Positions 7,750 to 35,708 of a DNA stretch of 42,724 nucleotides are shown one piece after another; the first letter of the stretch is position 1; every line of letters starts with the position of its first letter. The stretch is from a virus. The notes beneath the pieces were generated by a model. It did no database searches. It saw only the letters and a program-made list of their open reading frames with translations, and was not told where the DNA came from. Location: the IMG/VR virus record IMGVR_UViG_3300030117_000741, positions 1 through 42,724 of that record. The stretch is one strand, 5' to 3'. The translations under genes and the position numbers were made by a program.

Positions 7750-10700
7750 ATGCCATTATCATATAAAACTTTTACAGGAAATAGTGGTAGCCCACAGAGT
7801 ACCTTTACGCTGGATTTTCCTTATATTCTTAAGGATCATGTAAAGCTATATTATGGACGCAATATATTAAATAACACTCAAACATCTACATTAGTAAATG
7901 GTACAGACTATAACTTCACTAGCGATAATACAGTTCAATTAATTGGTTCTACTCTTAATTCAGGTACAACTGTTGGAGATCCACATAACTTAGCTAATGG
8001 TGTTGAATTAACTATTGAAAGAGATACTCCTGATAGTACACAAATTGTTGAGTTTCAAGATGGATCTAACTTAATTGGAGATAACCTTAATAATGCAAAT
8101 TTACAGAATTTATTTGTAGTCCAGGAGCAGCAAGATAAAAATGATTTATCTGCTACTAAAGCACAAGCCGCTGAAACTGCATCAAATACAGCTACTGCCA
8201 ATGTTGCAACCTTAACATCCACACAGTTTAAAGCTGATGGTTCAACATTAATGACAGGTAATATAAATGTTAATAGTAATAAAGTTATAAATGTTTCTGA
8301 TCCGACCAATGCACAAGATGCAGTAACAAAAAATTATCTTGAAAGAACTGGAAGTATTACTTCAACACAAATAGCAAACGGAACTATTGTTGATGACGAT
8401 ATAAATGCAAGTGCAAATATAGACGGATCTAAAATTGCTAACGATTCCATATCTATGGATAAGTTAGATTCTGGAACTTTGCCTGCTGATGTAAAAGTTG
8501 GTACTGGCAGCATTATTGATGGAACTATTTTAGATACTGATATAAATTCAGCGACAGCTATTCAGGGATCAAAATTACAAGCTGCTACTGGCACTAATGC
8601 TGGTTCAATGTCAGCCGCTGATAAGGCAAAATTAGATGGAATAGAAGCTGGAGCTAAAGATGATTTAACTCCTGGAGAAGTTAGACAAAAGGTACAAGAC
8701 GCATCTGACTCTAATGTTTTTACTGATGATGACCATACAAAATTAAATAACGCAGTAACTTTAACTGACAACCAGACTTTAACTAACAAGACTTTGACAA
8801 GTCCTGTCATTAACCAAATGTCAGGTACTGCTATTAAGACTTCTGGTGTATCTACAAGCGATTTAGAAGTTTATTCTGCTAAACGAGCTGGTGAAATATT
8901 TTATCAAAAAGACACTTTATCAGAAATAATTTCTACTGAGAACTGGAGTGCTAGTGATGACAAGGTAGCTACTACTGCTGCAATAGATGCCAGGATAACT
9001 GACCTGGTAGATGATGTTGGTGGTTTTGTACCAATAGCAAATGAATTAAGCTTTCCAAATTCTAATCCAGACTTAAATGATGGTGCTGGTACGTTAGTTA
9101 GCATAAAAGCATTATCTACAAATAGGACAGCTAACTCATCTGGTGAATTAGCAATTGCAAATGGCACATTAAATAACTCAACTGTTTTTATAACAGGTTT
9201 AGGTTCTAACGAAACATTGCCACAAGGTTTTGGTCTTATTGTAGAAAGTAGTGCTGGTGCAGTTAACAACACATATACATTTCATAGGCTTACACCAAAG
9301 GCAACAGAGGTAACAACAGTTGCAAGCAAATCTACTGAAATAAGTACAGTTCACACCAATATAACTGCTGTTAATTCTGTCTTTAATAATTTAACTGCTA
9401 TAAATGCTGTAAATAATAATTCAACAAACATTAATGCTGTTAATAGCAATTCAACAAACATCAATGCTGTTGCTGGAAACGAAACTAATATTAATGCAGT
9501 TAAAAATAACGCAACCAATATTAATGCAGTAGTTAGTAATGCTAATAATATTAATGATGTAGCTAATAACGAGACAAATATAAACGCTGTTAAAAATAAC
9601 GAGACAAATATAAACGCTGTTAATAGTAATTCTACAAATATTAATACTGTTGCTTCTTCAAATAATAATATTAACCAGGTAGCGACAAATATAAATAATG
9701 TAAGTACTGTTGCCAATGCAATTTCTAATGTAAATAATGTTGGTAACTCAATTAATAACCTAAATAATGTTCATAGCAGTTTATCCAACGTAAATAATGT
9801 CAGCAATAACATAGCAAGCGTAAATACTGTAGCTTCTAATTTAGGAACTGTTAATGATTTTGCTGCACGTTATCGTTCTGGTGCAAGCAACCCTACAACT
9901 AGCTTAGATACAGGAGACATATTCTTTAATACAACATCTAAAGAACTAAAGGTATATAACGGAACTGCTTGGCAGAATGGCGTCACAGCAACAGGTAACT
10001 TAGCAAGTTTAGGAAATAATACATTTACTGCTGATCAGGTTATTCATGGTATTACTGTTGGTAAAGGTGCTAGTTCTGTCGCTAATAATACTGCTCTTGG
10101 AGTTTCTGCTTTAGCTGCAAATACTTCTGGTAATGACAACCTTGCAGTAGGTAGTCTTGCATTAGAAGATAATACGTCTGGTGGTCATAACATAGCTTTA
10201 GGTAGAAAAGCACTTAAAACAAATACGACTCAATCAAATAACGTAGCGATAGGAAGCCATGCTTTAAATGTGGCAACTGCATCAAATAACACAGCTATTG
10301 GACATCTAGCCTTAACAGCAAACACAACTGGATCACCTAACACGGCAGTTGGAAATTTGGCATTAACAGATAATACAACAGGCAATAGAAACGTCGGAAT
10401 TGGTCACGATGCCTTACGCAAAAATATAACTGGAAATAATAATACTGCTGTTGGTGGTCAAGCAATGTATTACAACACCAGTGGTGGTAATAATGCTGCT
10501 TTTGGTTATTTTGCATTAGGACAGAACACAACTGGAATACAAAACACGGCTCTTGGTTTTGGGGCTTTAGATGCAAACACTACGGCATCAAACAATACTG
10601 CCGTTGGAAATATGGCATTATCTACAAACACAACTGGATTTCAAAACGTAGCTGTGGGAGCAAATGCTCTTGATGCTAATACTACTGGCGGAAATTGCAC

Positions 10701-14358: not shown

Positions 14359-14376
14359 TTATTTTTTTAAAAAACC

Positions 14377-16236: not shown

Positions 16237-16250
16237 TTACATATGTGTAA
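16237..16250. promoter_or_regulatory. Dyad TTACA-TATG-TGTAA between divergent genes
   Basis: A perfect inverted repeat of TTACA with a 4-bp spacer lies in the divergent gap between the holin candidate (-) and the 51-residue gene (+). It is the most symmetrical member of a seven-site family in this window and could control both directions. Confidence 0.7.
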
Positions 16251-19979: not shown

Positions 19980-19993
19980 CTACATATATGTAA
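19980..19993. promoter_or_regulatory. Dyad CTACA-TATA-TGTAA upstream of SSB
   Basis: One mismatch from TTACA-N4-TGTAA. It lies in the 80-bp gap between the RNA polymerase stop and SSB, about 40 nt from the SSB ATG. A looser partner (ACATACTATATGT) follows at 19961-19973. Confidence 0.6.
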
Positions 19994-20020: not shown

Positions 20021-22435
20021 TCAAGAAAAAAGATATGGGTTGCTTCCAATTACATTTTCATCCAATGTATTTACCCAGGGCGGCTCTGGTAAATTAATAC
20101 CTGAATTGACGCACATTTCAATCCATGCCTGCTTTAATAGGTCATTTTTATACATGCTATTCATTGTTTTATGCAATGTCTTATGGAGCTCACCTGCTGT
20201 CATCGCTTGAGTAGCAAAGCAATCATGATTAGTAAGTACTGGTATGGCTTGGTCTTCACAAGTGTTGAGTAGCGATACCAAATATGCACTATCAAGTGAA
20301 TGTGCAAAATTAGCTCCAATACTTTTATTAGCTTGTGTTGCAGATAATGGTGCGTTTATTGGTTGATCTTGCAAATTAACATTTAATCTTTTACCAAATA
20401 AAAAGGTTCTTACAGTTCTTGTTGTAGGTTCTCTGTCTGCTACTTTCATGGGCCATCCAGAAGGTGATGTCCATTCCAATGGTTTTCCTTTTGATAATGT
20501 AATTCTGCAAACTTTCATCAACCATTTTTTTACCTCCATACAAGTGTGTATTTCTTTCTTTAATTCTGCCCATATATGCTTTGCTAAATACTTAGACGGC
20601 ATTGCAACCCTTAAGGCAAATTCATCCAGGGGAACATAATTTAAATGCTCATCCAAAGCTTCTACTAAAGAATCACAAAGACTCATAAAAGATCCACCAT
20701 ATGGACTAGCTAAAATTGGCCCTTTTGTTAATTTTCTATCTATTCCCCTACCTAACCATAATTCAGCTAATGCTTTTTCTTTCTCATCTCCTAATTGCAA
20801 GTCCTGGGAAAGTCTATATGTAACTTGTTCTGCTACTTTTGTATATAAATCTTGTGGTTCGTCACCATATAAATTACATAATCTTCCTACATTTTTATCC
20901 CTTACGAGGGCGGAGAGTATTCCGCAACCTGACGTAGTTTGATCAAATCGTACTGGAACATCGCATTTCCTAAATTTTATTGCTTGTTCTACACCCCTGC
21001 AAAGTTGTAAGAATTGCCAGGGGTCGTCTGCATCCCGCCACAGGTCTAGATTTTTTAAAGGATCTTGTGCTGTAGCTTTTATTTTTTCAATGTTACGATT
21101 TCCCCACATAAGCCTTTCTTTCCAGGTTTTTTTAGACAAACCATAATGACCAGCCGCTGCCTTTAATAGCCATTCAATACCAGTATCATCTACAGCCATT
21201 TTTGAATTAAAGTGCAAAATTGCTTTTTCAGTATCTGGCCCCATTGTTGTTACATACTTATTTCCTGTATATAGCCTTCCTCGATGATCAGCATGGTAGC
21301 TCTGCCATATAGTTCTGCCGCTTAATTCTTCTGCCATTTGCAAACTTCTTTCGATTCTTACTCTCCTGGGCCTATTTTGCTCCCTATCTCTATGTGCCAT
21401 TGCAGCTAGTCTATTTCTAAGTTTCAAATCTTCCTTTGTTGGGTTGTTACCTAATCTTTCAGGTAAATCCATAGGTGCTCTGGAGCATGGAAACAAACCA
21501 TCTATGCCGTTTTCCCAGGCTACACGTTGCAGATCAACCATTTCAGCATCAACTCTTAATGGTGTTTCTTGTAAATAATTAACTGCTGTTAAAACCTTTA
21601 AAAGATTTGCTGTTTTGTAATGAGTTATGGCAGTTGTATGTTTTTCTTCATGGTCTTGGATTGGTACTCTTACTAAACATTCCTGGTTATCAATCATCCC
21701 TCCTCCATACAAACCATTCCAGGGATTTGGAGGGCAAACCATTGCCGTATAAACACCTTTATATGCAGCAGCAGGGCACTCTCTTATTAATTCTTCTGCT
21801 TCTTTTGTTGGTATTACAAATCTAGGTGTGGTCTTTCCTATCCTTCTTTTAATGACCCTGACAATACCAGTTGCAGGCACAATATGATCCAATAAAAAAC
21901 GCCCTACATGCAGGCGTGTAACGTCATTCCAAAATGGTATTGGGCAGCCTAGTTTTCTCATAATATCTCTAGTAGCAATTCTTTTTCTTCCTATCCCTTG
22001 TCTTATTAAATGTCTAAATTCAACAGAGCTTTTTTTGTTTAACCTTATTAAACGCTGTTCATCTTCAATTGCTTTACCTAAATTTTGACAGAACGTAGCT
22101 ATCCTAGCCTTTCTGCTTAGTTGGTCTAAAGTCGCAACCAGGGCAACTGCTGCAATGTGATGTGTTCCATCGAAGTTATCAAAAAATGGTATTGCAGCTC
22201 CATTAACTCTTGCTTTATCAGGATTAAGAACAAAATCTTCAAAAGTTCTATCTAATTCATCAGCTAAAGATTCTAAAGAATAGGTATATAACTGCTGCCC
22301 ATAAAGCAATGCAGATTCTTTTCCATAGTCTTTTAACTTGCGTTGTGACGCTGCATGAGATTGTTTTGATCTCAATTCTGCCTTTTTTTGTCTTGCAACT
22401 TGTTCAGCTTTTAGGTCTTTAAGCTGGTTGCACAT
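20021..22435 (-). CDS. T7-like single-subunit RNA polymerase (804 aa)
   Basis: All catalytic elements of the T7 gp1 family are present: YHADHRGRLYTG, motif A with D498 (VRFDQTTSGCG), motif B RKLTKGPILASPYGG with K571 and Y579 (the same 8-residue spacing as T7 K631/Y639), and motif C NHDCFAT with D738. It should transcribe the phage middle and late genes from phage promoters. T7 RNAP is 883 aa. I choose the ATG at 22435; an in-frame TTG at 22498 would add 21 unconvincing residues. It lies downstream of integrase, as in other T7-like cyanophages with int-RNAP order. Which motif is its promoter is unresolved (see the AACCACGACC and TTACA-N4-TGTAA entries). Confidence 0.95.
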   Translation of the reverse strand: MCNQLKDLKAEQVARQKKAELRSKQSHAASQRKLKDYGKESALLYGQQLYTYSLESLADELDRTFEDFVLNPDKARVNGAAIPFFDNFDGTHHIAAVALVATLDQLSRKARIATFCQNLGKAIEDEQRLIRLNKKSSVEFRHLIRQGIGRKRIATRDIMRKLGCPIPFWNDVTRLHVGRFLLDHIVPATGIVRVIKRRIGKTTPRFVIPTKEAEELIRECPAAAYKGVYTAMVCPPNPWNGLYGGGMIDNQECLVRVPIQDHEEKHTTAITHYKTANLLKVLTAVNYLQETPLRVDAEMVDLQRVAWENGIDGLFPCSRAPMDLPERLGNNPTKEDLKLRNRLAAMAHRDREQNRPRRVRIERSLQMAEELSGRTIWQSYHADHRGRLYTGNKYVTTMGPDTEKAILHFNSKMAVDDTGIEWLLKAAAGHYGLSKKTWKERLMWGNRNIEKIKATAQDPLKNLDLWRDADDPWQFLQLCRGVEQAIKFRKCDVPVRFDQTTSGCGILSALVRDKNVGRLCNLYGDEPQDLYTKVAEQVTYRLSQDLQLGDEKEKALAELWLGRGIDRKLTKGPILASPYGGSFMSLCDSLVEALDEHLNYVPLDEFALRVAMPSKYLAKHIWAELKKEIHTCMEVKKWLMKVCRITLSKGKPLEWTSPSGWPMKVADREPTTRTVRTFLFGKRLNVNLQDQPINAPLSATQANKSIGANFAHSLDSAYLVSLLNTCEDQAIPVLTNHDCFATQAMTAGELHKTLHKTMNSMYKNDLLKQAWIEMCVNSGINLPEPPWVNTLDENVIGSNPYLFS

Positions 22436-22445
22436 TTTTTGCAAC

Positions 22446-22672
22446 TTGCAACTTATGTGTCTCCCCCATATTGTGAGACATACGGAAGTGTAATGCAAGT
22501 AAAGACTCTAGTTACTAAGCCACTTTTATTTACTCTACACCCTTGTAGTCTTTATGGTATCACATTTGCAATGTGGTCAAGATTCACTCCTAGACTAGGC
22601 ATTTCGTTATGGTTGCGTGTTGGTTGCATCGTCAATCTGCAACTTATTATGATCTAACATTAGACCACATTG
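22446..22672. other. Candidate attP / integrase-binding region
   Basis: The short RNAP-integrase gap and its edges are unusually repeat-rich. TGCAACTTAT occurs twice in the same direction (22447-22456, 22638-22647). CAATGTGGTC (22569-22578) and GACCACATTG (22663-22672) form a 10-bp inverted repeat, extendable to 13 with one mismatch. TAAAGACT (22500-22507) and AGTCTTTA (22547-22554) form an inner inverted repeat. Arrays of short arm-type repeats next to an integrase 3' end are typical of attP sites. No tRNA-like core could be recognised, so the crossover sequence is not assigned. Confidence 0.4.
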
Positions 22673-23671
22673 TAAGTTATTCATTCTTTCGGCAACAGTT
22701 GTTAATTGTGTTATATCAACGTGAGCATATCGTTGAACTGCCTGCAAAGATTTCCAACCACCCCATTGCATCACCTGGACTAAACTTACTCCTTGAGCTG
22801 TTAATCGTGTTGCACATGTATGCCTGGTGCAATGCGTAGTTAATTCATTATCCAGGCTTAAACCAAGCACTCCCTTAGCCATATCAAATTGATGTGTCCA
22901 GGCTTTATATTTCATACCCCAAATTCTTTGAGTGCTAATTGTAGGCATGTATGGTGCTACAGCGTTTAAAGCAGCTTCTGTTAAAGGTACTGTTCTTGCA
23001 TTATGGTTTTTTGTTTTTGGATAAATAACTCTTTTCTTATATATATCTACTTCTCTTCCCATCATCCGTTCTGCTTCTGAAAACCTACAGCCTTGTTCAA
23101 TTAAAAAGACAAACATATGAGCTAATTTTGGTTTATGTATGGCATAAAAATAATTAACAAATGCCGTTTCTTCTTCTTTGCTAAATACTCTTTCTTTCGT
23201 GTTATCTAATGGCAAACCTTTAGGGAAATTTGGCAATTCTTTTATATATCCCATTTCATGACTATCAACAATCATGCAACGTAACGTACTTGCCTTCCAA
23301 TTTATAGTTCCAGGTTTATTTCCTAAGCTAAAAAAATGCTCTCGCATGCTATGTATATCTTTTGCTTTAATCCATTGCACAGGATGATGAGCACCAAAAA
23401 ATTTAATGACCTGCATGCCATAATTCATTGCATTAGGGCCGCATGACTTGTGTTTCCATCTAAGGTTATAACTTAAATCAAACGCCTGGGATAGCGTGTA
23501 CATATCGCCTGATCTTCTTCTTGCAGGCTGCAAAGTATCAGCATTTTTATATGCTTCGGCCTGTTTTTGAATAACTAATTCCTTAGTAGCTGCTTTTAAT
23601 TGGATTCTTCTGCCATTAATTTTAAAGTCAGCAATCCAACCCTTCTTATGAGGATTTTTTCTAATAGACAT
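22607..23671 (-). CDS. int: Tyrosine recombinase / phage integrase (354 aa)
   Basis: Catalytic residues of the family can be traced: R196 (GCRFSEAERM), Lys in PKTKNHNART, H280 and R283 in HCTRHTCATRL, the Trp-containing GGWKS in place of LGH, and nucleophile Y315 in VQRYAHVDI. The N-terminus (KKGWIADFKINGRRIQLKA) looks like an arm-binding AP2-type domain; the middle is a SAM-like core-binding domain. It would integrate the genome by site-specific recombination. AACCACGACC lies 7 nt before the ATG in place of a ribosome binding site. Integrase genes occur in several marine T7-like podoviruses, though stable lysogeny is rarely shown. Confidence 0.93.
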   Translation of the reverse strand: MSIRKNPHKKGWIADFKINGRRIQLKAATKELVIQKQAEAYKNADTLQPARRRSGDMYTLSQAFDLSYNLRWKHKSCGPNAMNYGMQVIKFFGAHHPVQWIKAKDIHSMREHFFSLGNKPGTINWKASTLRCMIVDSHEMGYIKELPNFPKGLPLDNTKERVFSKEEETAFVNYFYAIHKPKLAHMFVFLIEQGCRFSEAERMMGREVDIYKKRVIYPKTKNHNARTVPLTEAALNAVAPYMPTISTQRIWGMKYKAWTHQFDMAKGVLGLSLDNELTTHCTRHTCATRLTAQGVSLVQVMQWGGWKSLQAVQRYAHVDITQLTTVAERMNNLQCGLMLDHNKLQIDDATNTQP

Positions 23672-23678
23672 GTTTTTT

Positions 23679-23688
23679 GGTCGTGGTT
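23679..23688 (-). promoter_or_regulatory. AACCACGACC element before integrase
   Basis: An exact 10-bp copy on the minus strand, 7 nt before the integrase ATG. It is one of five copies within 23.6-28.3 kb. No Shine-Dalgarno lies between it and the start. Confidence 0.6.
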
Positions 23689-23696
23689 GTTGGGGT

Positions 23697-24017
23697 TTAA
23701 GTGATGTTTTTTAGGTTCTGATGTATTGATTTACCTTTTTTGGTAAGTCTTACTCTATACCTTCTTCCTTCTTGTGGGTCTATAAATATCTCAACAAGTC
23801 CTAAACTATTACCCCTATGCCTGGCATTTTCACTTAACGCATTTGATATACGACTTACAGCAGCATTAGATAAGTTAAATCTTTCTTCTATTTCCCTGTA
23901 AGTACAGGATTCTTGCTTTGCAATAAACAAAAATACCTGGGTGTGATGTAATGGCAGAACTCCTGGGTCTAAAGCACCTAAAATATCCAGAGCCGCCTCC
24001 AGTTGACGTAAATCCAT
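23697..24017 (-). CDS. MarR-like winged-helix regulator (106 aa)
   Basis: The winged-helix pattern is clear: VFLFIAKQESCTYREIEERF (helix and turn), LSNAAVSRISNAL (recognition helix), then a wing (LVEIFIDPQEGRRYRVRLTKKG). This is the MarR/DUF24-like arrangement. It lies directly upstream of integrase in the minus-strand order, a place suited to a repressor of the lytic programme. A TTACA-N4-TGTAA-type dyad lies upstream (24228-24241), raising the possibility of autoregulation. No Shine-Dalgarno is visible at the ATG. The direction of its regulation is unknown. Confidence 0.78.
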   Translation of the reverse strand: MDLRQLEAALDILGALDPGVLPLHHTQVFLFIAKQESCTYREIEERFNLSNAAVSRISNALSENARHRGNSLGLVEIFIDPQEGRRYRVRLTKKGKSIHQNLKNIT

Positions 24018-24175
24018 GAAAAATCAGATGGTGTAGGTCTTGTTTCTTTAACTAAAGAAAACGATAGCCCTTTTCTACGTTTTGTGCGAGTTCTAAATAT
24101 TGAGAAATGTAACCCATAACTGCCGTTAGGGATAAGAATAGAAGTTATTAAGGTGGCATCATGGTGTAATTTCAT
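23978..24175 (-). CDS. Possible small protein overlapping the MarR-like gene (65 aa)
   Basis: An open frame beginning MKLHHDATLITSILIPNGSY with a plausible beta/basic composition. It covers the otherwise empty stretch before the MarR-like gene and overlaps it by 40 nt. It has no convincing ribosome binding site and no recognised family, so it may be either a real leader gene or chance. Confidence 0.35.
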   Translation of the reverse strand: MKLHHDATLITSILIPNGSYGLHFSIFRTRTKRRKGLSFSLVKETRPTPSDFSWIYVNWRRLWIF

Positions 24176-24227
24176 TAAACTATATTCTTTATAACATAAA
24201 GTTATAACAGAGATTTGGAACTATATC

Positions 24228-24241
24228 TTACACATGTGCAA
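24228..24241. promoter_or_regulatory. Dyad TTACA-CATG-TGCAA upstream of the MarR-like region
   Basis: One mismatch from TTACA-N4-TGTAA, in the 152-bp gap between the two MarR-like units. It would be the natural autoregulatory site if one of these proteins binds this family of dyads. Confidence 0.65.
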
Positions 24242-24327
24242 ATATTACAGATATATTAAGCTGTCGGTATAATTGCCTACTCAAAACCCCTTAAATATTT
24301 ACATATAAAGATTTTTTATATGTGAAG

Positions 24328-24681
24328 TTATAATTCATCACTTGTGATGAGTTCCAGCAATTGTATGCCTAATCTAGACAGTTCTAAATGTTTTGCTCTT
24401 TGAGTGCCCTTTTTACGCTTCAATATACCTATCACAGGCTGAACCATTTCTCCTTTTCTGTTTAATTTGGGTATAAATGGATAGATTGCCTTGTTTACTG
24501 AGGCTGCATCTGCTCCTGTTTTTTGTGCTAATTGTGCTATTGTTTGTGACTCCTGGGCGACATATAAAAAGCACTCGACAGACAGAAGGCCAATTCTGCT
24601 GTCGGTGCTATTTTGTCGGAGCATAGTCAACAATCTTGCGAAGGTTCTGTATTGCTCTTTAATCATTAACGATGTTGCCAT
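24328..24681 (-). CDS. Second MarR-like winged-helix protein (117 aa)
   Basis: Residues ~33-75 form a helix-turn-helix of MarR type (SVECFLYVAQESQTIAQLAQ, then ADAASVNKAIYPFIPKL as recognition helix). A basic wing follows (IGILKRKKGTQRAKHLELS) and a C-terminal helix. GGAG lies about 10 nt before the ATG at 24681, and its start overlaps the zinc-ribbon gene by 16 nt. It is the second such regulator within 1 kb and shares architecture with the downstream one but little identity by eye. Target unknown. Confidence 0.72.
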   Translation of the reverse strand: MATSLMIKEQYRTFARLLTMLRQNSTDSRIGLLSVECFLYVAQESQTIAQLAQKTGADAASVNKAIYPFIPKLNRKGEMVQPVIGILKRKKGTQRAKHLELSRLGIQLLELITSDEL

Positions 24682-25013
24682 ACAGTATTTTCTCCATAAT
24701 GAAGTCTATGAAACGGAACATAACATTTTATATCTGGGTTAACAAAAGCAACTCTTTTTGAAAGTTTTTTTGCTCCACATCTAATAGTCCATTGTTCCTT
24801 TTTAGTGGTGCGTCCACATTGTTCGCACTTTTTTTCCTTCCAGGAAAGCTTATAAACTCTATGTTGATGACGGCAATAAACACAATAAACATCACTTCCA
24901 TGCCTATATGCTTTTTGATATTTTTTTATTTTTGTTCTGTAAATAATATCTACATGAACAATCTCATTAGAGTAGTCATCAATAAAAAAATCAATGTTGG
25001 TTCGTCTGGTCAT
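24666..25013 (-). CDS. Zinc-ribbon early protein (115 aa)
   Basis: C44-x2-C47 and C63-x2-C66 form a zinc ribbon (YCVYCRHQH ... KCEQCGRTT) within a basic protein. The N-terminus (NIDFFIDDYSNEIVHVDIIY) is predicted beta. No family recognised; the ribbon suggests binding of DNA, RNA or a host transcription component. It overlaps a two-helix membrane gene upstream by 23 nt and a MarR-like gene downstream by 16 nt. Confidence 0.7.
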   Translation of the reverse strand: MTRRTNIDFFIDDYSNEIVHVDIIYRTKIKKYQKAYRHGSDVYCVYCRHQHRVYKLSWKEKKCEQCGRTTKKEQWTIRCGAKKLSKRVAFVNPDIKCYVPFHRLHYGENTVWQHR

Positions 25014-25146
25014 TTTTAAAAATTGAATAAATAATTATTGATCCAACTACTAATACAAATACAGGTTCGGCAAATCCGACCAATAAATATATTAAAGCTG
25101 GTAAAGAAATAGAGCCGCCTACAAATATGAGGGCAGCTCCTAGCAT
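24991..25146 (-). CDS. Small two-helix membrane protein (51 aa)
   Basis: Two hydrophobic segments (LGAALIFVGGSISLPALIYL and VFVLVVGSIIIYSIF) with a short FAEP turn. A GGAGGAGG ribosome binding site sits about 20 nt before the ATG, so initiation at an upstream ATT (25155 region) cannot be excluded. It overlaps the next gene. Function unknown; small early membrane proteins of phages often alter the host envelope or exclude other phages. Confidence 0.6.
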   Translation of the reverse strand: MLGAALIFVGGSISLPALIYLLVGFAEPVFVLVVGSIIIYSIFKNDQTNQH

Positions 25147-25157
25147 TTTTTTCTTAA

Positions 25158-25283
25158 TTAGTTTTCCTCCTCCTTTTGTTGTTTGGTTAAGCCAAGATCT
25201 TTAAACATTTGAAAAATCTTTTGATTTATCTCTTCTTGTTTTTCTTTAGGAAGAGATATGTAAGGTGTTTGATCTTGTTTCAT
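25158..25283 (-). CDS. Small acidic/lysine-rich early protein (41 aa)
   Basis: MKQDQTPYISLPKEKQEEIN opens a helical charged peptide. AGGAGA precedes the start and the ATG overlaps the upstream stop (ATGA at 25280-25283). No family recognised. Confidence 0.6.
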   Translation of the reverse strand: MKQDQTPYISLPKEKQEEINQKIFQMFKDLGLTKQQKEEEN

Positions 25284-25483
25284 TTTTTCTCCTGGACTTT
25301 CGGCTCGTAAACTTTTACGCTTTTAAGCTTGTCTTCTTCTGTACTGATGTACACTTTTTTGCCTTTTTTAGTTTCTTCACGAAACTTTTTATGTTCGGCG
25401 GCTACATCTTCAACAGAATTTAACTTGTTAATGTCAATTTCTTTGGTGTTGCCGTCCATGTCCATAAATGAAAAACTAGGCAT
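25280..25483 (-). CDS. Small early protein (67 aa)
   Basis: MPSFSFMDMDGNTKEIDINK begins a mixed beta/helix protein with a lysine-rich end. AAGGAGA lies 6-7 nt before the ATG, and the AACCACGACC element is 17 nt upstream. It heads a run of overlapping early genes down to the MarR-like regulator. No family recognised. Confidence 0.68.
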   Translation of the reverse strand: MPSFSFMDMDGNTKEIDINKLNSVEDVAAEHKKFREETKKGKKVYISTEEDKLKSVKVYEPKVQEKK

Positions 25484-25500
25484 GATTAAATCTCCTTTTG

Positions 25501-25510
25501 GGTCGTGGTT
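25501..25510 (-). promoter_or_regulatory. AACCACGACC element before the 67-aa gene
   Basis: An exact copy on the minus strand. It is directly preceded (minus sense) by the TGCTGG hairpin of the 20-bp repeat and followed by the ribosome binding site. Confidence 0.62.
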
Positions 25511-25511
25511 T

Positions 25512-25531
25512 AATGCTGGTGAGTCCAGCAG
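25512..25531. repeat. 20-bp direct repeat, copy 1, containing hairpin TGCTGG-N5-CCAGCA
   Basis: aatgctggtgagtccagcag is identical to 26352-26371. The 6-bp stem TGCTGG/CCAGCA encloses the loop TGAGT. In the minus sense it contains GGACTCACC, which shares GACTCAC with the T7 promoter core. Confidence 0.75.
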
Positions 25532-25553
25532 AGGAGGGATTTAACCCCCTCCT
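25532..25553 (-). terminator. Stem AGGAGGG/CCCTCCT at a gene end
   Basis: A perfect 7-bp GC-rich stem (25532-25538 with 25547-25553) spans the stop codon of the 73-residue gene. There is no U-run, so it may be a processing or pausing structure rather than an intrinsic terminator. It abuts the 20-bp repeat. Confidence 0.4.
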
Positions 25554-25762
25554 GGGCTGTCTTCATCATCGTCATTAGTCAAACAGACAAAGCCGCAGGC
25601 GTTGCCGTTGTAGTCCAATAACTTCAATGTAGTTTTTTCGAATTGGCTGCGCGGGTCGTAATATTCCATATCCGCCGCAATCTTTTTAAGTATGCGGGCC
25701 GCCTCCCCTGGACTATTGAAGGCGGCGTTATCTGTTTCAATTGAGATAAATATTTTACTCAT
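25541..25762 (-). CDS. Small mobile-element-type protein (73 aa)
   Basis: MSKIFISIETDNAAFNSPGEAARILKK (first strand and helix), then a beta segment TLKLLDYNGNACGF. This pattern is familiar from small hypothetical proteins of phages and plasmids, but I cannot name a function. Local GC is high (50% at 25681-25740). It overlaps the upstream gene by ATGA. Confidence 0.7.
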   Translation of the reverse strand: MSKIFISIETDNAAFNSPGEAARILKKIAADMEYYDPRSQFEKTTLKLLDYNGNACGFVCLTNDDDEDSPGGG

Positions 25763-25986
25763 TCAAAACACCTCTCAATGGCCCTGGCGGTGTCCATAAT
25801 TGCGTCATATTCTTGCAATTCTGTTATTAATCCGTCGAAATCTTCAGAAGGTGGCATAACTGACGAAACAGCGTCAAATATTTCTGAGCCGTATTCTTCC
25901 CGAAGGCCGTTTAAATATTCTGCCCTGGTGTTGTATCCTTCTTCCTGGTATCGGCTGATTAAGATGCCGCTTTCTTTGTCTCTCAT
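25759..25986 (-). CDS. Small helical mobile-element-type protein (75 aa)
   Basis: Acidic helical protein (EYGSEIFDAVSSVMPPSEDF, DGLITELQEYDAI), resembling small proteins of mobile elements that I have no functional name for. It is coupled by ATGA overlaps on both sides, indicating one cassette with its neighbours. Confidence 0.7.
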   Translation of the reverse strand: MRDKESGILISRYQEEGYNTRAEYLNGLREEYGSEIFDAVSSVMPPSEDFDGLITELQEYDAIMDTARAIERCFE

Positions 25987-26276
25987 TGGTTTACCTCCTC
26001 AACTTCTGCCCAACTATCCCAAGATCTTTTTAAATCGCTGGCTAGTTCGTGCAGGTTGCAATCTTCCAAAATTCCATATGCTATTTCATAAGCCTCGTCA
26101 CAATTCCATTTGATATGATTTGCGGCAAGTTTTGCAATCGCTTTAGATCTTGGGGCGGTTTGCGGGTCTATAAATGCAGTTAATTTAGTCTGCATTATTG
26201 CTCTTTTAAAAAGATTGTCAGACATTTCTCTATTGTGTTCCATGTCTTTAACTTTTTTAAGATAATCTTTGTGCAT
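25983..26276 (-). CDS. Early hypothetical protein (97 aa)
   Basis: Helical, with basic centre (TAPRSKAIAKLAANHIKWNC) and acidic, Trp-containing end (RSWDSWAEVEEVNQ). An AGGAG ribosome binding site directly follows AACCACGACC, 13 nt before the ATG at 26276. It starts the three-gene coupled cassette 26276-25541. No family recognised. Confidence 0.7.
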   Translation of the reverse strand: MHKDYLKKVKDMEHNREMSDNLFKRAIMQTKLTAFIDPQTAPRSKAIAKLAANHIKWNCDEAYEIAYGILEDCNLHELASDLKRSWDSWAEVEEVNQ

Positions 26277-26289
26277 GTGCTTTGCTCCT

Positions 26290-26299
26290 GGTCGTGGTT
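26290..26299 (-). promoter_or_regulatory. AACCACGACC element before the 97-aa gene
   Basis: An exact copy on the minus strand. The ribosome binding site AGGAG follows without a gap, so a transcript starting near this element would have a very short leader. Confidence 0.62.
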
Positions 26300-26351
26300 A
26301 AAAATAAGCCTGGCTGCTCTTAGTAGGATTTCCCCACATTGTCCAGGCTTA

Positions 26352-26371
26352 AATGCTGGTGAGTCCAGCAG
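26352..26371. repeat. 20-bp direct repeat, copy 2
   Basis: Identical to 25512-25531 and 840 bp away. It again lies between a GC-rich hairpin and an AACCACGACC element (here about 53 bp from the element instead of 1 bp). Confidence 0.75.
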
Positions 26372-26391
26372 GGAAAGCCCGAAGGCTTTCC
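26372..26391 (-). terminator. UUCG-capped hairpin GGAAAGCC-TTCG-GGCTTTCC
   Basis: A perfect 8-bp stem with a TTCG tetraloop in the minus sense, 9 nt after the stop of the 125-residue gene. It is an exceptionally stable structure without a U-run. It is likely a 3'-end stabiliser, processing site or terminator between early units. Confidence 0.6.
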
Positions 26392-26400
26392 AGGCTAGAG

Positions 26401-26778
26401 TCAAATTGCCCTGGCTTTCTCGTTTACTTCAGCTCTATTGCGTTTACATAGCATCTTGTAATGATTAATAAGTTGCATTGTTTCGCTGAAACTGTCGTTA
26501 CTTGTTGAAGGGTATCTTTCATACCTTCTACAAGGTGCTAGACCTTCGTAAGATTTGATTATTAAATGAGGTCTTTTCTTTTCGATAGCCTCAAAAGCAT
26601 ACATAAACAGGCTCGCATCTTGGTCTTCTTCTAAAAAGACTCTCTTATTGGTTGTTCCTGTTATGTATGAATAACCGCTTATATGTTGATCTAAGCCCAG
26701 GTATTGAAGCAGGTCATAATTTACTTCAATGTATCCATGACCGCCGTCCTGGTGGAATGTGAAAGTAGAGGCAATCAT
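26401..26778 (-). CDS. Mobile-element-type hypothetical protein (125 aa)
   Basis: Features FHQDGGHGYIEVNYDLLQYLG and ISGYSYITG, then FLEEDQDASLF, a pattern seen in small plasmid and phage proteins alongside DUF2958-type genes. Function unknown. Its ATG abuts the stop of the DUF2958 gene (TAAATG). GC is above the genome background. Confidence 0.72.
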   Translation of the reverse strand: MIASTFTFHQDGGHGYIEVNYDLLQYLGLDQHISGYSYITGTTNKRVFLEEDQDASLFMYAFEAIEKKRPHLIIKSYEGLAPCRRYERYPSTSNDSFSETMQLINHYKMLCKRNRAEVNEKARAI

Positions 26779-27144
26779 TTATGCATACCTCTTCTTAATG
26801 TTTTCAAGAGTGTCCTTAGTAAAGTACAAATCCCTCTCAACCATGTATTTAACAGTAAGTAATGAAGGTCTGTCGGTGTACTTCTTAAGAAGGTCTCTAA
26901 GTTCATCTATGTTGATGTAACCTAATTCGGCCATTTCAGGCATACCTGAAAGCCTAGACCAACCGAACGCTTCCGTCCCTTCCTCGTTTACTTCTGTCAA
27001 ATAGAAGTCTCCAATAGGCCCGAATAAATGGGCATGAACTGTTGCCTGGTCTCCCTTGCCGTCCTGTTCATATAGCCTGGGCATTTCCTGGACTAATTCA
27101 GGAGGCATAAGCTTAAAGCTTTCTGTAATTCCGATAGTTTCCAT
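26779..27144 (-). CDS. DUF2958 protein (121 aa)
   Basis: Recognised by LMPPELVQEMPRLYEQDGKG near the N-terminus, VHAHLFGPIGDFYLTEV, FGWSRLSG, MAELGYINIDELRDL, and VERDLYFTKDTLENI at the end, in the usual order of DUF2958. The family is widespread on plasmids and integrative elements; its function is not established. It is the first large gene of the minus-strand early region. AACCACGACC lies 20 nt upstream of the ATG. Confidence 0.82.
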   Translation of the reverse strand: METIGITESFKLMPPELVQEMPRLYEQDGKGDQATVHAHLFGPIGDFYLTEVNEEGTEAFGWSRLSGMPEMAELGYINIDELRDLLKKYTDRPSLLTVKYMVERDLYFTKDTLENIKKRYA

Positions 27145-27164
27145 TTGTTTTGATTTCTGGCGGG

Positions 27165-27174
27165 GGTCGTGGTT
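27165..27174 (-). promoter_or_regulatory. AACCACGACC element before the DUF2958 gene
   Basis: An exact copy on the minus strand, 20 nt before the ATG, without a strong ribosome binding site in between. Confidence 0.6.
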
Positions 27175-27290
27175 GGTGTGTGGCCGCCATTAGTTATATT
27201 CTGACTAACCCTGTAGAACTTTGCATTACTGCAAATAAGATATTAATAAAACTTTACATTAATTATCCTCTGCTATTCTTCGGCGGGTGC

Positions 27291-27392
27291 TTATCTTTGT
27301 TTATTGGTGGCCGTTGGCGTTCCTCCTGGACAATTTACCAGGCATCCAGCATTGAATGACATTATTAATGTGATCCAGGCTAACCATCCCAT
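27291..27392 (-). CDS. Possible 33-aa leader peptide
   Basis: Starts MGWLAWITLIMSFNAGCLVN after a very purine-rich GGGAGGGGAGGG. It has one short hydrophobic segment and a Cys-containing polar tail. It is the first possible gene after the sigma70-like promoter at 27427-27456. It is too short for certainty. Confidence 0.45.
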   Translation of the reverse strand: MGWLAWITLIMSFNAGCLVNCPGGTPTATNKQR

Positions 27393-27426
27393 GCCCTCCC
27401 CTCCCTTAGTTGCAAATCAAGTTGCA

Positions 27427-27456
27427 TTTATATAAAAAACCTTTTTTTATAGGCAA
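27427..27456 (-). promoter_or_regulatory. Sigma70-like early promoter, minus strand
   Basis: TTGCCT (27451-27456, minus sense) is separated by 18 bp of A/T tracts from TATAAA (27427-27432); TATATA with 16 bp is an alternative. It points into the minus-strand early genes, as expected for host RNA polymerase transcribing before the phage enzyme is made. Confidence 0.5.
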
Positions 27457-27695
27457 TTTATAGGGGGGCAATGGGGAAAAATAGCCGAATGACATTCGAT
27501 TTCACCCCTTAATCGTGAGACCCAAAATGGGTTTATTACGAAAGAGGCTTATCGAGGTAAGCTGAAAGGATATTAGGTTAGAGATTGTAGGTAAGGTAAA
27601 GGTTATTTGCGGTTAATTCTCTATAGATTCTTGCCGAAGGAATCTCCTTAACGTCTCTATCGTAGGCATATTCTGCTAATATGGCAAGTATTGTT

Positions 27696-27709
27696 TTACA
27701 CATATGTAG
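27696..27709. promoter_or_regulatory. Dyad TTACA-CATA-TGTAG before the 79-aa gene
   Basis: One mismatch from TTACA-N4-TGTAA. It ends 2 nt before the ATG at 27712; there is no Shine-Dalgarno, so the dyad occupies the initiation region. Confidence 0.68.
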
Positions 27710-27711
27710 AT

Positions 27712-27951
27712 ATGCCAAAAATTGATGCAATGGAAAAAGAGCTAGAGGAGTTCAGAAGAAATTTCGGAAAAGAAGAGAGAGACTTAACTCCGAGGGAAAG
27801 ATATAGTTATAAAAGAAGCATGAGAAGGATAAGAGAAAAGCATGGATTAACAGATGGGTTGAGGTGTAATAGGGAACAATTCAAGAAATATTTACAGAAA
27901 CGTAGAGAACAGGATGCAAAAGATCGTCCAGGGCGTTATTTTAGTAGATAA
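27712..27951 (+). CDS. Small basic charged protein (79 aa)
   Basis: MPKIDAMEKELEEFRRNFGK begins a highly charged, helical protein rich in Arg, Lys and Glu (RYSYKRSMRRIREKHG). I choose the ATG at 27712 over the in-frame TTG at 27691 because the latter would start inside the dyad. It is first in the plus-strand late arm. A nucleic-acid or packaging role is a guess. Confidence 0.68.
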   Translation: MPKIDAMEKELEEFRRNFGKEERDLTPRERYSYKRSMRRIREKHGLTDGLRCNREQFKKYLQKRREQDAKDRPGRYFSR

Positions 27952-27968
27952 GTACCTGTAACACTCCT

Positions 27969-28031
27969 ATGGCATACGGAAAACCAAAGAAAGTGAAACC
28001 TTTAAAGAAAGTAAAAGGAGGTAAGAAGTAA
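27969..28031 (+). CDS. Lysine-rich 20-aa peptide
   Basis: Encodes MAYGKPKKVKPLKKVKGGKK, almost half lysine. Its last codons contain AGGAGG, which serves the next gene, and its stop overlaps that start (TAATG). It may be a real micro-gene or a coupling leader. Confidence 0.45.
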   Translation: MAYGKPKKVKPLKKVKGGKK

Positions 28032-28180
28032 TGGCAAAGAGAGGACTTTATGCAAACATCCATGCAAAGAGGGAAAGAATAAAAGCTGGATCAGGAGAGA
28101 AGATGAGAAAGCCTGGAAGCAAGGGATCACCTACTGCTGCAAACTTTAAAAGAGCTGCAAAAACCGCTAAAAAGCGGTAA
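28031..28180 (+). CDS. Small conserved basic protein (49 aa)
   Basis: Starts MAKRGLYANIHAKRERIKAG and ends FKRAAKTAKKR; about one third Lys/Arg. A very similar small basic protein recurs in my memory of marine cyanophage and pelagiphage genomes near packaging genes. AGGAGG lies 8 nt upstream. It could be DNA-associated; function is unproven. Confidence 0.75.
   Translation: MAKRGLYANIHAKRERIKAGSGEKMRKPGSKGSPTAANFKRAAKTAKKR
28158..28178 (-). terminator. Intrinsic terminator for minus-strand transcription
   Basis: In the minus sense, ACCGCT-TTTT-AGCGGT is followed by TTTTG. The perfect 6-bp stem plus U-run faces transcripts coming from 28.2 kb and would stop them before the early genes. In the plus sense it lies within the last codons of the 49-residue gene and has no U-run. 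Confidence 0.55.
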
Positions 28181-28210
28181 TCTTAACATAACCCTTGTAG
28201 CTTGCTGCTT

Positions 28211-28220
28211 GGTCGTGGTC
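28211..28220 (-). promoter_or_regulatory. AACCACGACC-like element without an obvious gene
   Basis: GACCACGACC on the minus strand, a 9/10 match. No credible minus-strand gene follows; the minus terminator at 28158-28178 lies only about 35 bp downstream, so a very short RNA would result if it initiates transcription. Confidence 0.45.
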
Positions 28221-28223
28221 AGC

Positions 28224-28254
28224 GGGGGTTCGCAAGACCCCTTCTTGGGGTTTT
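28224..28254 (+). terminator. Two mutually exclusive hairpins (attenuator-like) before the terminase operon
   Basis: GGGGT (28225-28229) can pair with ACCCC (28237-28241), or AAGACCCC (28234-28241) can pair with GGGGTTTT (28247-28254). The second forms an 8-bp stem with one G.T pair whose 3' side is U-rich. Both use the same CCCC, so only one can form. Position before the 52-residue gene and terminase suggests a readthrough switch. Confidence 0.5.
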
Positions 28255-28273
28255 GTCGTATTTACTTAAAGCC

Positions 28274-28432
28274 ATGCCTTATTTAACAAACAACCAACGT
28301 CTTGATCTCGACTTAGTAGGATCATGTGTAGTTAAGGATACTACCCTTAAAGAGAAGAAACCTGCTACTTATTATGTACAGGATGCACCAGTAGTAGAAG
28401 AGAAGAAGAAAGAAGAAGAAAAGAGTGAATAA
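28274..28432 (+). CDS. Small acidic-tailed protein before terminase (52 aa)
   Basis: MPYLTNNQRLDLDLVGSCVV then a Glu/Lys tail. It is coupled to the terminase gene by TAATG. It is too small and unlike gp18 to call a small terminase. No family recognised. Confidence 0.6.
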   Translation: MPYLTNNQRLDLDLVGSCVVKDTTLKEKKPATYYVQDAPVVEEKKKEEEKSE

Positions 28433-30198
28433 TGATAGAACTTTGGGAACCATTACCTAAAGTTTTAAGAGACAGCTTTCCTAATTTCACTTGTTATTTA
28501 TTAAGGGAATTAGGATTAGCTGATACTCCTACTCGTCAACAGATAGCAGTTTGTGATTGGATGCAAAATGGGCCAGATAAAAGCCTTACTGTTGCATTTC
28601 GTGGATTAGGTAAATCAATTCTTGCGTCTTTCTATGCTTTATGGCGTTTAAGAGTAGATCCCAATGAAAAAATTCTTGTTGTCTCAGCTACTGCTGTAAA
28701 AGCTACTGACTTTTCTGCTTTTATGTTGAGATGTATTGGTGAAATAGATATTCTTAATTGTCTTATGCCTGGTAATACTGACAGGTTTAGTAATGTAGCG
28801 TTTGATGTTGCTCCTGGATCTAAAGAACAAAGTCCTTCTGTAAGATCAATGGGGATTATGGGGCAGACCACGGGTCAACGCTGTACTTGTGCAATATTAG
28901 ACGATGTAGAAACTTTAGCTAATGTCATAACACAACTAAAACAAGAAAGAGTTGCACATGCTGTAGAAGAAATTCAATCAATTATTAAACCTGATGAAGG
29001 TCAAATATTACCTCGTAAGATTTTATATCTAGGAACACCTCATACAGAAACATCAATTTATCTTCGTCTTGTGAGAGAAAGGAATTATTCTGCTCGTTAC
29101 TGGCCTGCCTTGTATCCGAAGGAGATGGATTGCTACGAGGGCAACCTCGATCCTACGATCCAACAAGAGGTCATCTCTAATCCCACTCTCGTGCAAGAGC
29201 CTACTGATCCAGAGCGTTTTGGTCATGAAGACATTCTCCAGAGAAAAGCTTCTATGACAAAAGCTTCTTTTGAATTGCAGTTCATGCTTAATACCAGACT
29301 AGCGAACCTAGATCGTTTTCCAATACGTCTTGGTGATTTAATGGTAATGGATATTGATGGTTCTGCTTTACCAGAAACTGTGGTTTGGTCTAATCAACCT
29401 GATTGCCGTTTACAGGATTTGGTTTGCGTTGGTATGGGTGCTGATCGTTTTTATCACAAACCGATATTTCAAAATGGTTGGGTTTCTAAAGATGAACAAT
29501 GGCGATGTGTGTTAGCAATTGATCCAGCAGGCCGAGGCCAAGATGAACTTGCTTGGGCTGTTGTCGCTGAATTAAATGGAAATATGTTCGTCCTGGAGTC
29601 AGGTGGTTCTACTCTTGGTTATGCAGATGAAGTTCTTAAATATTTGGCAGATGTTGCTAAAAAATGGGATGTAAATTATGTAATCGCTGAATCTAATATG
29701 GGTGATGGTATGTTTTCTGCTTTATTAAAACCACATTTACTAAGAACTCATCCTGTAACTATTGAAGAAGTTAGACATAACATTAGAAAAGAACATAGAT
29801 TATGTGATGTTTTAGGGCCGTTAATACAACAACATCGCCTGGTAGTTACAAGCAAAGTAATAAAAACTGATTACCGATTACATGATGATGACCCTGAACA
29901 TGGTTACTCCAGGAGTTTATTTTTTCAGGCTAGTCGTCTTACTGCTGAAAAAGGTTGTTTAAGTTTTGATGATAGGTTGGATGCTTTAGCTATAGCATGT
30001 GGATTTTTTGTCGAATCTGCTGCTCAAGATCAGATGCAGGCACAACAAGCCAGAACTGATCAATTGGCAGAAGCTGAAATGGAAGCCTGGTTAGATGAAA
30101 CTGCTGGTTCTATTGATTCAATTTGTATGGGATGGACTAAAAAACAAGTATCAGGTAAATCTTATGGCGGTGTTAAGAGGCTGAGGGTGGGATCTTAA
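28432..30198 (+). CDS. Terminase large subunit, T7 gp19-like (588 aa)
   Basis: ATPase motifs: Walker A FRGLGKS with K61 and Walker B AILDD with D157-D158. C-terminal RNase H-like nuclease: AIDPAGRG with D364, and SFDDRLDALA with D517. Length matches T7 gp19 (586). It pumps DNA into the prohead and cuts concatemers. An island at about 29098-29225 (YPKEMDCYEGNLDPTIQ) uses GC-rich codons (55% GC in the line at 29101) unlike the rest. Its 3' end overlaps the convergent TerS-like gene by 26 nt. Confidence 0.95.
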   Translation: MIELWEPLPKVLRDSFPNFTCYLLRELGLADTPTRQQIAVCDWMQNGPDKSLTVAFRGLGKSILASFYALWRLRVDPNEKILVVSATAVKATDFSAFMLRCIGEIDILNCLMPGNTDRFSNVAFDVAPGSKEQSPSVRSMGIMGQTTGQRCTCAILDDVETLANVITQLKQERVAHAVEEIQSIIKPDEGQILPRKILYLGTPHTETSIYLRLVRERNYSARYWPALYPKEMDCYEGNLDPTIQQEVISNPTLVQEPTDPERFGHEDILQRKASMTKASFELQFMLNTRLANLDRFPIRLGDLMVMDIDGSALPETVVWSNQPDCRLQDLVCVGMGADRFYHKPIFQNGWVSKDEQWRCVLAIDPAGRGQDELAWAVVAELNGNMFVLESGGSTLGYADEVLKYLADVAKKWDVNYVIAESNMGDGMFSALLKPHLLRTHPVTIEEVRHNIRKEHRLCDVLGPLIQQHRLVVTSKVIKTDYRLHDDDPEHGYSRSLFFQASRLTAEKGCLSFDDRLDALAIACGFFVESAAQDQMQAQQARTDQLAEAEMEAWLDETAGSIDSICMGWTKKQVSGKSYGGVKRLRVGS

Positions 30199-30416: not shown

Positions 30417-30430
30417 CTACATATGTGCAA
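30417..30430. promoter_or_regulatory. Dyad CTACA-TATG-TGCAA before TerS-like gene
   Basis: In the minus sense this reads TTGCA-CATA-TGTAG, one mismatch per half-site from the consensus. It ends 4 nt before the TerS-like ATG, with no Shine-Dalgarno. Confidence 0.6.
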
Positions 30431-30493
30431 TATATAATTTATATTATGCCAAAAGGTTACATAAATCATGTAAAAGGGGTAATCTATAGAGTA

Positions 30494-35694: not shown

Positions 35695-35708
35695 CAACAC
35701 ATGTGTAA
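35695..35708. promoter_or_regulatory. Dyad CAACA-CATG-TGTAA before the tail operon
   Basis: One mismatch from TTACA-N4-TGTAA, lying between the terminator and the ATG at 35715. With the terminator just upstream, a new transcript must start here or leak through, so this dyad sits where a promoter is needed. Confidence 0.7.

Follow-up and report, generated by a model that had tools for sequence, protein, structure and literature searches.

Phage antisense RNAs known so far mostly act on one overlapping gene each, and c4 is a structured phage RNA that carries short antisense stretches. OOP of lambda, directed at cII, and Sar of P22, directed at ant, each have one phage mRNA as their target (PMC12197685), and the c4 antisense RNA corresponds to RF01695 (PMC2864571). 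Short asymmetric repeats of unknown function, called SAS/ESAS, lie beside the starts of non-structural genes in cluster K mycobacteriophages; SAS often has an inverted repeat just upstream, and the consensus of this inverted repeat differs between subclusters (PMC3203893, PMC12699233). T7/Syn5-type promoters (PMC3950665) are likewise short and repeated; they are alike within a phage and diverge from one phage to another.

The repeated element AACCACGACC described here is, judging from comparisons of related genomes, quite probably the target site of a trans-acting antisense RNA that the phage encodes upstream of its terminase gene. Like OOP and Sar, this regulator would be a small phage-encoded RNA that base-pairs with phage mRNA and takes part in lysis/lysogeny control, and as with Sar the predicted pairing is located at or near translation starts. 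OOP and Sar serve a single gene each, whereas here one distant predicted RNA with a short seed would address two to nine early genes, including integrase. Like c4, the predicted RNA is structured, phage-encoded and equipped with short antisense sequence, but it has no Rfam match and differs in position, structure, phage group and its multi-gene target set.

The window, the whole 42.7-kb stretch of viral DNA that was analysed, carries in its early region four exact copies of AACCACGACC and one of GACCACGACC, all on the minus strand and all where the original prediction had placed them. Putative target site 1 (23679–23688) lies 7 nt ahead of the start codon (23671) of a tyrosine integrase gene (22607–23671, minus strand), the conserved target gene. 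Site 2 (25501–25510) precedes a 67-aa early ORF (25280–25483) by 17 nt, site 3 (26290–26299) a 97-aa early ORF (25983–26276) by 13 nt, and site 4 (27165–27174) the first early ORF (26779–27144) by 20 nt, in agreement with the 7–20 nt claimed for integrase and early genes. Sequence comparison places site 4 in the loop of a stem, TGGCGG...CCGCCA (27158–27189, minus strand), in which lineage L002 shows a paired change to TGGCAG...CTGCCA. A degenerate sixth copy, AAACAAGACC (about 24036–24045, minus strand), is found upstream of a MarR-like regulator gene (23697–24017, minus strand) that appears to be targeted in some lineages (L038 and L062); its counterpart in L002–L004 is AAACACGACC, at the same place. 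The gene for the T7-like single-subunit RNA polymerase (20021–22498, minus strand) has no element in front of it.

When one mismatch is allowed the element has seven matches in the window, compared with a shuffle mean of 0.61 (maximum 3), and none of 100 shuffles reached seven. The two additional one-mismatch matches, at 14373 and 33607, correspond to AACC-ATG-ACC strings where late ORFs begin. Moreover, the 9-mer core ACCACGACC occurs exactly five times in the 42.7 kb, every time on the minus strand. These counts bear out the earlier view that the element is a genuine signal specific to the early region. Its unit is indeed about 10 nt long, with no conserved flank found, and it forms a signal class apart from the TTACA dyad.

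A motif search in related genomes, as the original prediction had suggested, revealed that the element is conserved and that its sequence differs by lineage, with CCCACGACT, CACGACAAC, TCACCCGAC, CAACAACCACCACC, CCACCTACC and others among relatives that include Synechococcus phage S-SRP02. The integrase start has an element upstream in all 16 lineages scanned, and the early genes matched form a set of two to nine per genome (four exact in the window). Conservation is limited to approximately 9–14 nt, and the distance to the start codon ranges from 0 to 38 nt; the element directly abuts the start codon of MarR in L038, and does so also in L058 and L062, and it is 1–3 nt away in others. In GC-rich relatives the copies are unstructured C/A stretches. 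In most genomes scanned, every copy except one precedes an early-strand gene start (four of five copies in the window, five of six in L025, eight of nine in L153 and nine of ten in L159), and the odd copy is a reverse complement within a hairpin-plus-terminator RNA ahead of terminase.

In the window the odd copy is the fifth one (28211–28220), which is followed by no minus-strand gene and sits between two late (plus-strand) ORFs. The original prediction located it correctly and overlooked its probable role as the antisense partner, in a terminator-ended hairpin RNA, that co-varies with the other copies. Read on the late strand, this copy is the anti-element GGTCGTGGTC, the seed of the proposed antisense RNA, which lies in the 3′ arm and loop of a hairpin (H1, 28190–28230, plus strand) and is partly paired within it. 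An intrinsic terminator hairpin, GCAAGACCCCTTCTTGGGGTTTTGTC (28231–28258, plus strand), adjoins H1 on its 3′ side, and the predicted minimal RNA comprising the two hairpins (28190–28262, plus strand) has a minimum free energy of −30.7 kcal/mol (z = −3.5). A terminator of the same design but with different arms is present in L004, L006, L032 and L052. For S-SRP02 the corresponding late-strand RNA (9278–9370) is predicted to be about 75–110 nt long and to end at the terminator ahead of terminase. The gene for the terminase large subunit (28432–30198, plus strand) lies downstream of the RNA locus in every lineage examined, and the predicted targets in the window are about 1–4.5 kb away from this locus. 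Rfam searches covering the early region and the sequence near terminase in the window returned no family above its gathering score, c4 antisense RNA included, and those with the window and S-SRP02 leaders gave chance hits only.

Across 19 lineages, the terminase-leader copy matches the targets of its own genome with a trace of 203.8, compared with a permutation mean of 128.8 and maximum of 164.5 (p<1e-5), and matches between this orphan copy and the targets are far better within than between lineages (p<1e-5). Setting the site by structure only (24 nt 5′ of the terminator) gave 142 versus 97, with a maximum of 127 (p<1e-5). As in antisense sRNAs, the seed complements translation-initiation regions in several mRNAs, and pairing has been kept by compensatory change of RNA and targets. 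These comparisons establish the complementarity, its position and its concerted evolution. Some seed/target matches come cheaply because C/A-rich variants such as ACCACCACC are low in complexity, and most evidential weight is carried by variants with G or T (CACGAC, CACCCGAC, CACCTACC and CACCTATCC). In L025, L052, L058, L128, L140, L142 and others, a scan of the 600 nt preceding terminase did not pick up the orphan, owing to inserted genes or a site located further upstream; these copies were recovered by motif search or with a covariance model.

Both the hairpin and the terminator co-vary. The terminator is paired in all 19 sequences with six two-sided changes, and it keeps G-U pairs that are possible on the late strand only. 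For H1 in the S-SRP02 clade, 98.6–99% of cells are paired (49–65% in slid controls), two-sided changes occur at four pairs, and the covariation score was reached by none of 500 shuffles. Transitions facing the invariant seed in this clade preserve G-U/G-C pairing, again on the late strand only. Strand-specific RNA structure and a terminator are established by these data, so that at the predicted level the locus has a structured RNA of its own with an intrinsic terminator, as expected for an antisense sRNA. Covariation of the window-type H1 is not above shuffles (92 of 500; five distinct sequences), and minimum-energy z-scores for H1 alone are weak except in the S-SRP02 clade. The excess stability of the late strand was not counted as evidence, because it is partly an effect of composition (G/U-rich versus C/A-rich).

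A covariance model of the RNA yields a single strong match per genome, on the late strand at terminase. It uncovered out-of-sample loci in L128, L131, L140, L142 and L174, whose seeds have 9–13 nt matches before early genes of the same genome, mostly integrase. The S-SRP02 model did not reach the window-type RNA, and searching three whole MAG genomes for R1 produced no match.

The 86 target sites are accessible (mean unpaired 0.76) and are found at translation starts, with a median distance of 11.5 nt. Ranking all translation starts of the window against the seed with RNAduplex failed to separate the target genes from background, because long interrupted duplexes are allowed. A sigma-70 promoter scan gave fewer matches than in shuffles. 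In window-type phages the sequence CTTGTAG, located ahead of H1, was considered as a late promoter of the antisense RNA and was dropped because the motif is non-specific.

We propose that a small RNA, at minimum about 28190–28262 on the plus strand, carries a hairpin that would expose the complementary GGUCGUGGU, together with an intrinsic terminator, and pairs in trans with 9–16 nt beside early start codons. Integrase and small early ORFs are the predicted targets, joined in some relatives by MarR and SSB. Pairing would block ribosome entry or destabilise the mRNA after transcription of the late strand starts, and such silencing would close the early/lysogeny programme. We infer that the RNA is produced, is stable, pairs with its targets in vivo and has a repressive effect, with timing such that early genes are probably silenced at the onset of late transcription. 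The fact that sites and RNA have changed together in more than a dozen lineages suggests an RNA switch between the early/lysogenic and the late programme. With moderate confidence we extend this reading to a group of T7-like, integrase-carrying cyanophage-type viruses, in which one terminase-leader antisense RNA would silence the genes of the early and lysogeny programmes as one regulon, by way of a common seed site at their start codons. Joint re-coding of seed and sites would have happened repeatedly, with at least a dozen variants, leaving each phage with a private pairing code.

Pairing is symmetric and the anti-element adjoins the terminator preceding the terminase operon, so the same complementarity could work in the reverse direction, with early mRNAs acting on the late-strand leader through titration or changed termination before terminase, or it could activate early translation. 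We regard this as unlikely, since many targets with one partner is the usual layout for a trans-acting regulator RNA, and since the sites are located at start codons, where repression usually acts, rather than in coding or 3′ regions.

It is quite unlikely that the phage T7-like RNA polymerase uses the element as a compact promoter, with lineage variation reflecting promoter/polymerase co-evolution and the terminase-side copy serving as the first early-strand promoter. Every copy is in early-strand orientation, the variation is concerted, copies are often preceded by hairpins or terminators, and ACGAC is common to the element and the T7 promoter. Precedents are the phage promoter in the lysogeny region of LUZ100, a temperate T7-like phage (PMC10134795), and the Syn5 promoter, which is only 15 bp long (PMC3950665). 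However, no conserved 15–23 bp block with an initiation region was found, and late/structural genes have no copy upstream on their own strand in 12 of the 13 genomes checked. Elements that abut start codons leave no room for a leader, several lineages have elements at 0–3 nt, and the polymerase gene itself lacks a copy. The promoter reading would also leave unexplained why the orphan is part of a late-strand hairpin that covaries, contains G-U pairs and is directly followed by a terminator. Specificity-loop residues of five polymerases, compared by eye, were uninformative. The promoter core originally put forward thus fits poorly, given also the spacing of 0–38 nt and the unconserved flank, whereas the RNA leader element offered beside it stands.

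There is little chance that the element acts on ribosomes or host factors as a start-associated translation element, either SAS-like or an unstructured C/A-rich enhancer, with the terminase-side copy as a relic. Copies do lie near early-gene start codons, mostly unpaired, and are unstructured C/A stretches in GC-rich relatives. The element shares with SAS/ESAS the form of a short repeat closely upstream of non-structural gene starts, often accompanied by an inverted repeat. The SAS consensus GGGATAGGAGCCC includes a Shine-Dalgarno-like AGGAG, and the element variants do not resemble it. We found no description of an antisense partner for SAS, whereas the element has a putative one here. The variable spacing also argues against this explanation, as does uniformity within and difference between lineages whose hosts' ribosomes should be alike; nor would it lead one to expect the copy in the terminase leader, with its structure and its co-variation. 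That the element is a DNA operator bound by a phage regulator, for instance the MarR-like protein, is very improbable. Operators typically occur as short repeated sites, and the MarR-like gene is inside the cluster, but the element is non-palindromic, strand-biased relative to genes and 0–38 nt from start codons. The natural candidate for an operator is instead the palindromic TTACAC(A/G)TGTGTAA dyad, and G-U-preserving changes in the late-strand hairpin would go unexplained.

How T7-like phages control lysogeny is an open question (PMC10134795). If the elements are indeed targets of a terminase-leader antisense RNA, one phage RNA controls many of the phage's own early genes, integrase always included, and T7-like phages possess an RNA-level early-to-late and lysis-lysogeny switch. 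The cultured member S-SRP02, which grows on Synechococcus SR-C1, makes the proposal testable, and it would be worth looking for antisense partners of SAS and other start-associated repeats that lack an explanation. The many re-codings of seed and targets would form a natural series for studying how the code of an RNA regulon changes, and whether related phages in a co-infection turn off one another's early genes might depend on their lineage-specific seeds.

The window is the 42.7-kb genome of a T7-like podovirus that encodes a single-subunit RNA polymerase, a tyrosine integrase, a MarR-like regulator and a terminase, with early and lysogeny genes on one strand and terminase and structural genes on the opposite strand. 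Its nearest annotated records include the uncultured Mediterranean phages S37-C6 and S31-C1 (60% and 52% identity in RNA polymerase, respectively) and Synechococcus phage S-SRP02 (35%), whose published description contains none of the words motif, promoter or terminator in its text (PMC8790148). The original prediction of five AACCACGACC copies, confined to the early region and mostly just before start codons, is correct: four are exact, one reads GACCACGACC, and all are on the minus strand. Matches with at most one mismatch number seven versus 0.61 expected, and the 9-mer ACCACGACC occurs five times in the window, always on the minus strand. The exact copies precede the start codons of three small early ORFs by 20, 13 and 17 nt and that of integrase by 7 nt. 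No minus-strand gene follows the fifth, orphan copy (28211-28220).

In close relatives (86-93% in RNA polymerase), the element is retained at these same genes. More distant relatives, examined by repeat search, carry another sequence in the same place that is uniform within each genome (ACCACGACCA, CCCACGACCA, CCCACGACTTGGA, CCACGACAAC, TCACCCGACA, CAACAACCACCACC, CACCAACCACC and others), and the element at the orthologous integrase start is its own genome's variant. An element that changes in concert like this needs a partner that is encoded by the phage and co-evolves with it. Among 16 lineages scanned, the targets (start-associated copies) include integrase in all 16 plus several small early genes, and SSB or MarR in some. 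Because the C/A-rich variants have low complexity, the strongest support comes from those that contain G or T.

Read on the late strand, the orphan is an anti-element (GGTCGTGGTC, 28211-28220, +) inside a hairpin, H1 (28190-28230, +), with an intrinsic terminator directly 3′ of it (28231-28258, +). For the RNA with both hairpins, the folding energy is −30.7 kcal/mol (z = −3.5). The same layout is found upstream of terminase in the lineages examined, where H1 carries a seed, the reverse complement of the lineage's own variant, followed by a strong terminator. Subtracting start-associated copies from all copies leaves exactly one in 9 of 13 genomes scanned, the exceptions being S-SRP02, whose orphan is itself followed by an antisense ORF, and three genomes with one further copy. 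A search upstream of H1 for a promoter of the proposed antisense RNA found none. In S-SRP02-type phages a third hairpin lies upstream of H1 (L026 ~9350-9372 (-), L066, L120, L159 and others) with a recurrent GGUGGU loop, as in CCCAG-GUGGUG-CUGGG and GGG-GUGGUU-CCC; this loop, complementary to the ACCAC part common to the targets of these phages, is perhaps a second seed.

Across 19 lineages, the trace of orphans against their own targets was 203.8; permutations averaged 128.8 and peaked at 164.5 (p<1e-5). Since some orphans had been located through their match, the test was repeated on 13 leaders with the site set by structure to the 24 nt that precede the terminator stem, giving 142 versus 97 (maximum 127, p<1e-5), with own targets ranked first in 10 of the 13. 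Trained on seven RNAs of the S-SRP02 clade, a covariance model gave a single strong late-strand match, at terminase, in each of many genomes beyond the training set. In L128, L131, L140, L142 and L174, whose orphans were previously not known, the seed matches 9-13 nt in front of the phage's own early genes, integrase in most. Thermodynamic ranking of targets against the seed was uninformative in the window.

Several features point to RNA-RNA pairing. Pairing of the terminator holds in 19 of 19 sequences. Six changes are two-sided, and several G-U pairs are conserved, each of which the opposite strand would turn into an A-C mismatch. Opposite the invariant seed of the S-SRP02 clade, the 5′ arm of H1 changes by transitions only, preserving late-strand G-C, A-U or G-U pairing; 98.6-99% of H1 cells are paired, with four two-sided changes and a covariation score reached by none of 500 shuffles (slid controls, 49-65%). 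Window-type H1 behaves similarly, but its distinct sequences are too few for significance. Most of the target sequence is unpaired (mean 0.76, 86 sites), and targets lie a median of 11.5 nt from the start codon (range 0-38). At the first early gene the target forms part of a loop closed by a stem, the two arms of which vary in step (TGGCGG/CCGCCA in the window, TGGCAG/CTGCCA in L002, CAGGGCTG/CAGCCCTG in S37-C6). Separately, a recurrent hairpin pair, UUCG-type and then YUCW-loop (such as GCUGG-ACUCA-CCAGC), lies between early genes directly before the element (window 25511-25545 and 26340-26400 (-); L052, L037, L081), its loops kept and its stems variable.

Location, spacing, flanks and orphan structure argue against the alternative that the element is a promoter for the phage RNA polymerase. 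Late genes on their own strand are never preceded by it in 12 of 13 genomes, nor does it precede the RNA polymerase gene. It can abut the ATG (MarR in L038 and L062, integrase in L058) and has no conserved initiation region. In Syn5, the closest cyanophage to have been studied, the promoter is a block of 15 bp that ends at +1 (PMC3950665). A promoter would also not account for the hairpin and terminator that surround the orphan.

Other signals were observed. TTACAC(A/G)TGTGTAA-like palindromes (16237-16250, 19980-19993, 24228-24241, 27696-27709, 30417-30430, 35695-35708), mostly near starts or between divergent genes, are plausibly operators of the MarR-like protein; before SSB, window-type phages have this dyad and relatives L037-L039 an antisense target instead. 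Adjoining the dyad at 30484 (+) and ~16262 (-) is CTATAGAGTA (e.g. AATCTATAGAGTATTACAC, ACCTATAGAGTAACGATTACAC), possibly the true phage RNA polymerase promoter. In S37-C6 (10180-10213 and 39105-39134, +), CTACGAGCCTGTAGTGGTC is repeated before two late genes, one encoding tail tubular protein A; this late-gene signal differs from the early element. A stretch of ~500 nt (27190-27690), lying between the early transcription unit and the late one, lacks convincing ORFs and contains blocks conserved in L004, L006 and L007, such as TAATGTAAAGTTTTATTAATATCTTATTTGCAGTAATGCAAAGT.

Phage antisense RNAs include the c4 family (PMC2864571) and OOP, Sar and others that act on single genes (PMC12197685), whereas the RNA proposed here would reach many early genes of its own phage by way of a seed site that recurs at them. 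We found no description of such an arrangement, or of this leader RNA, in the open-access literature, and no match in Rfam. For the targets, the most similar described elements are the SAS/ESAS of cluster K mycobacteriophages, which have no known function (PMC3203893).

The analysis shows complementarity, position, co-variation and strand-specific structure for the RNA and its targets; we infer expression of the antisense RNA, pairing in vivo, repression and its timing. Transcription of the terminase leader on the late strand would give an RNA that ends in the terminator, and the seed of this RNA would pair with 9-16 nt at early mRNA starts, most likely blocking translation or triggering decay. 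Early and lysogeny functions would thereby be shut as late expression begins.
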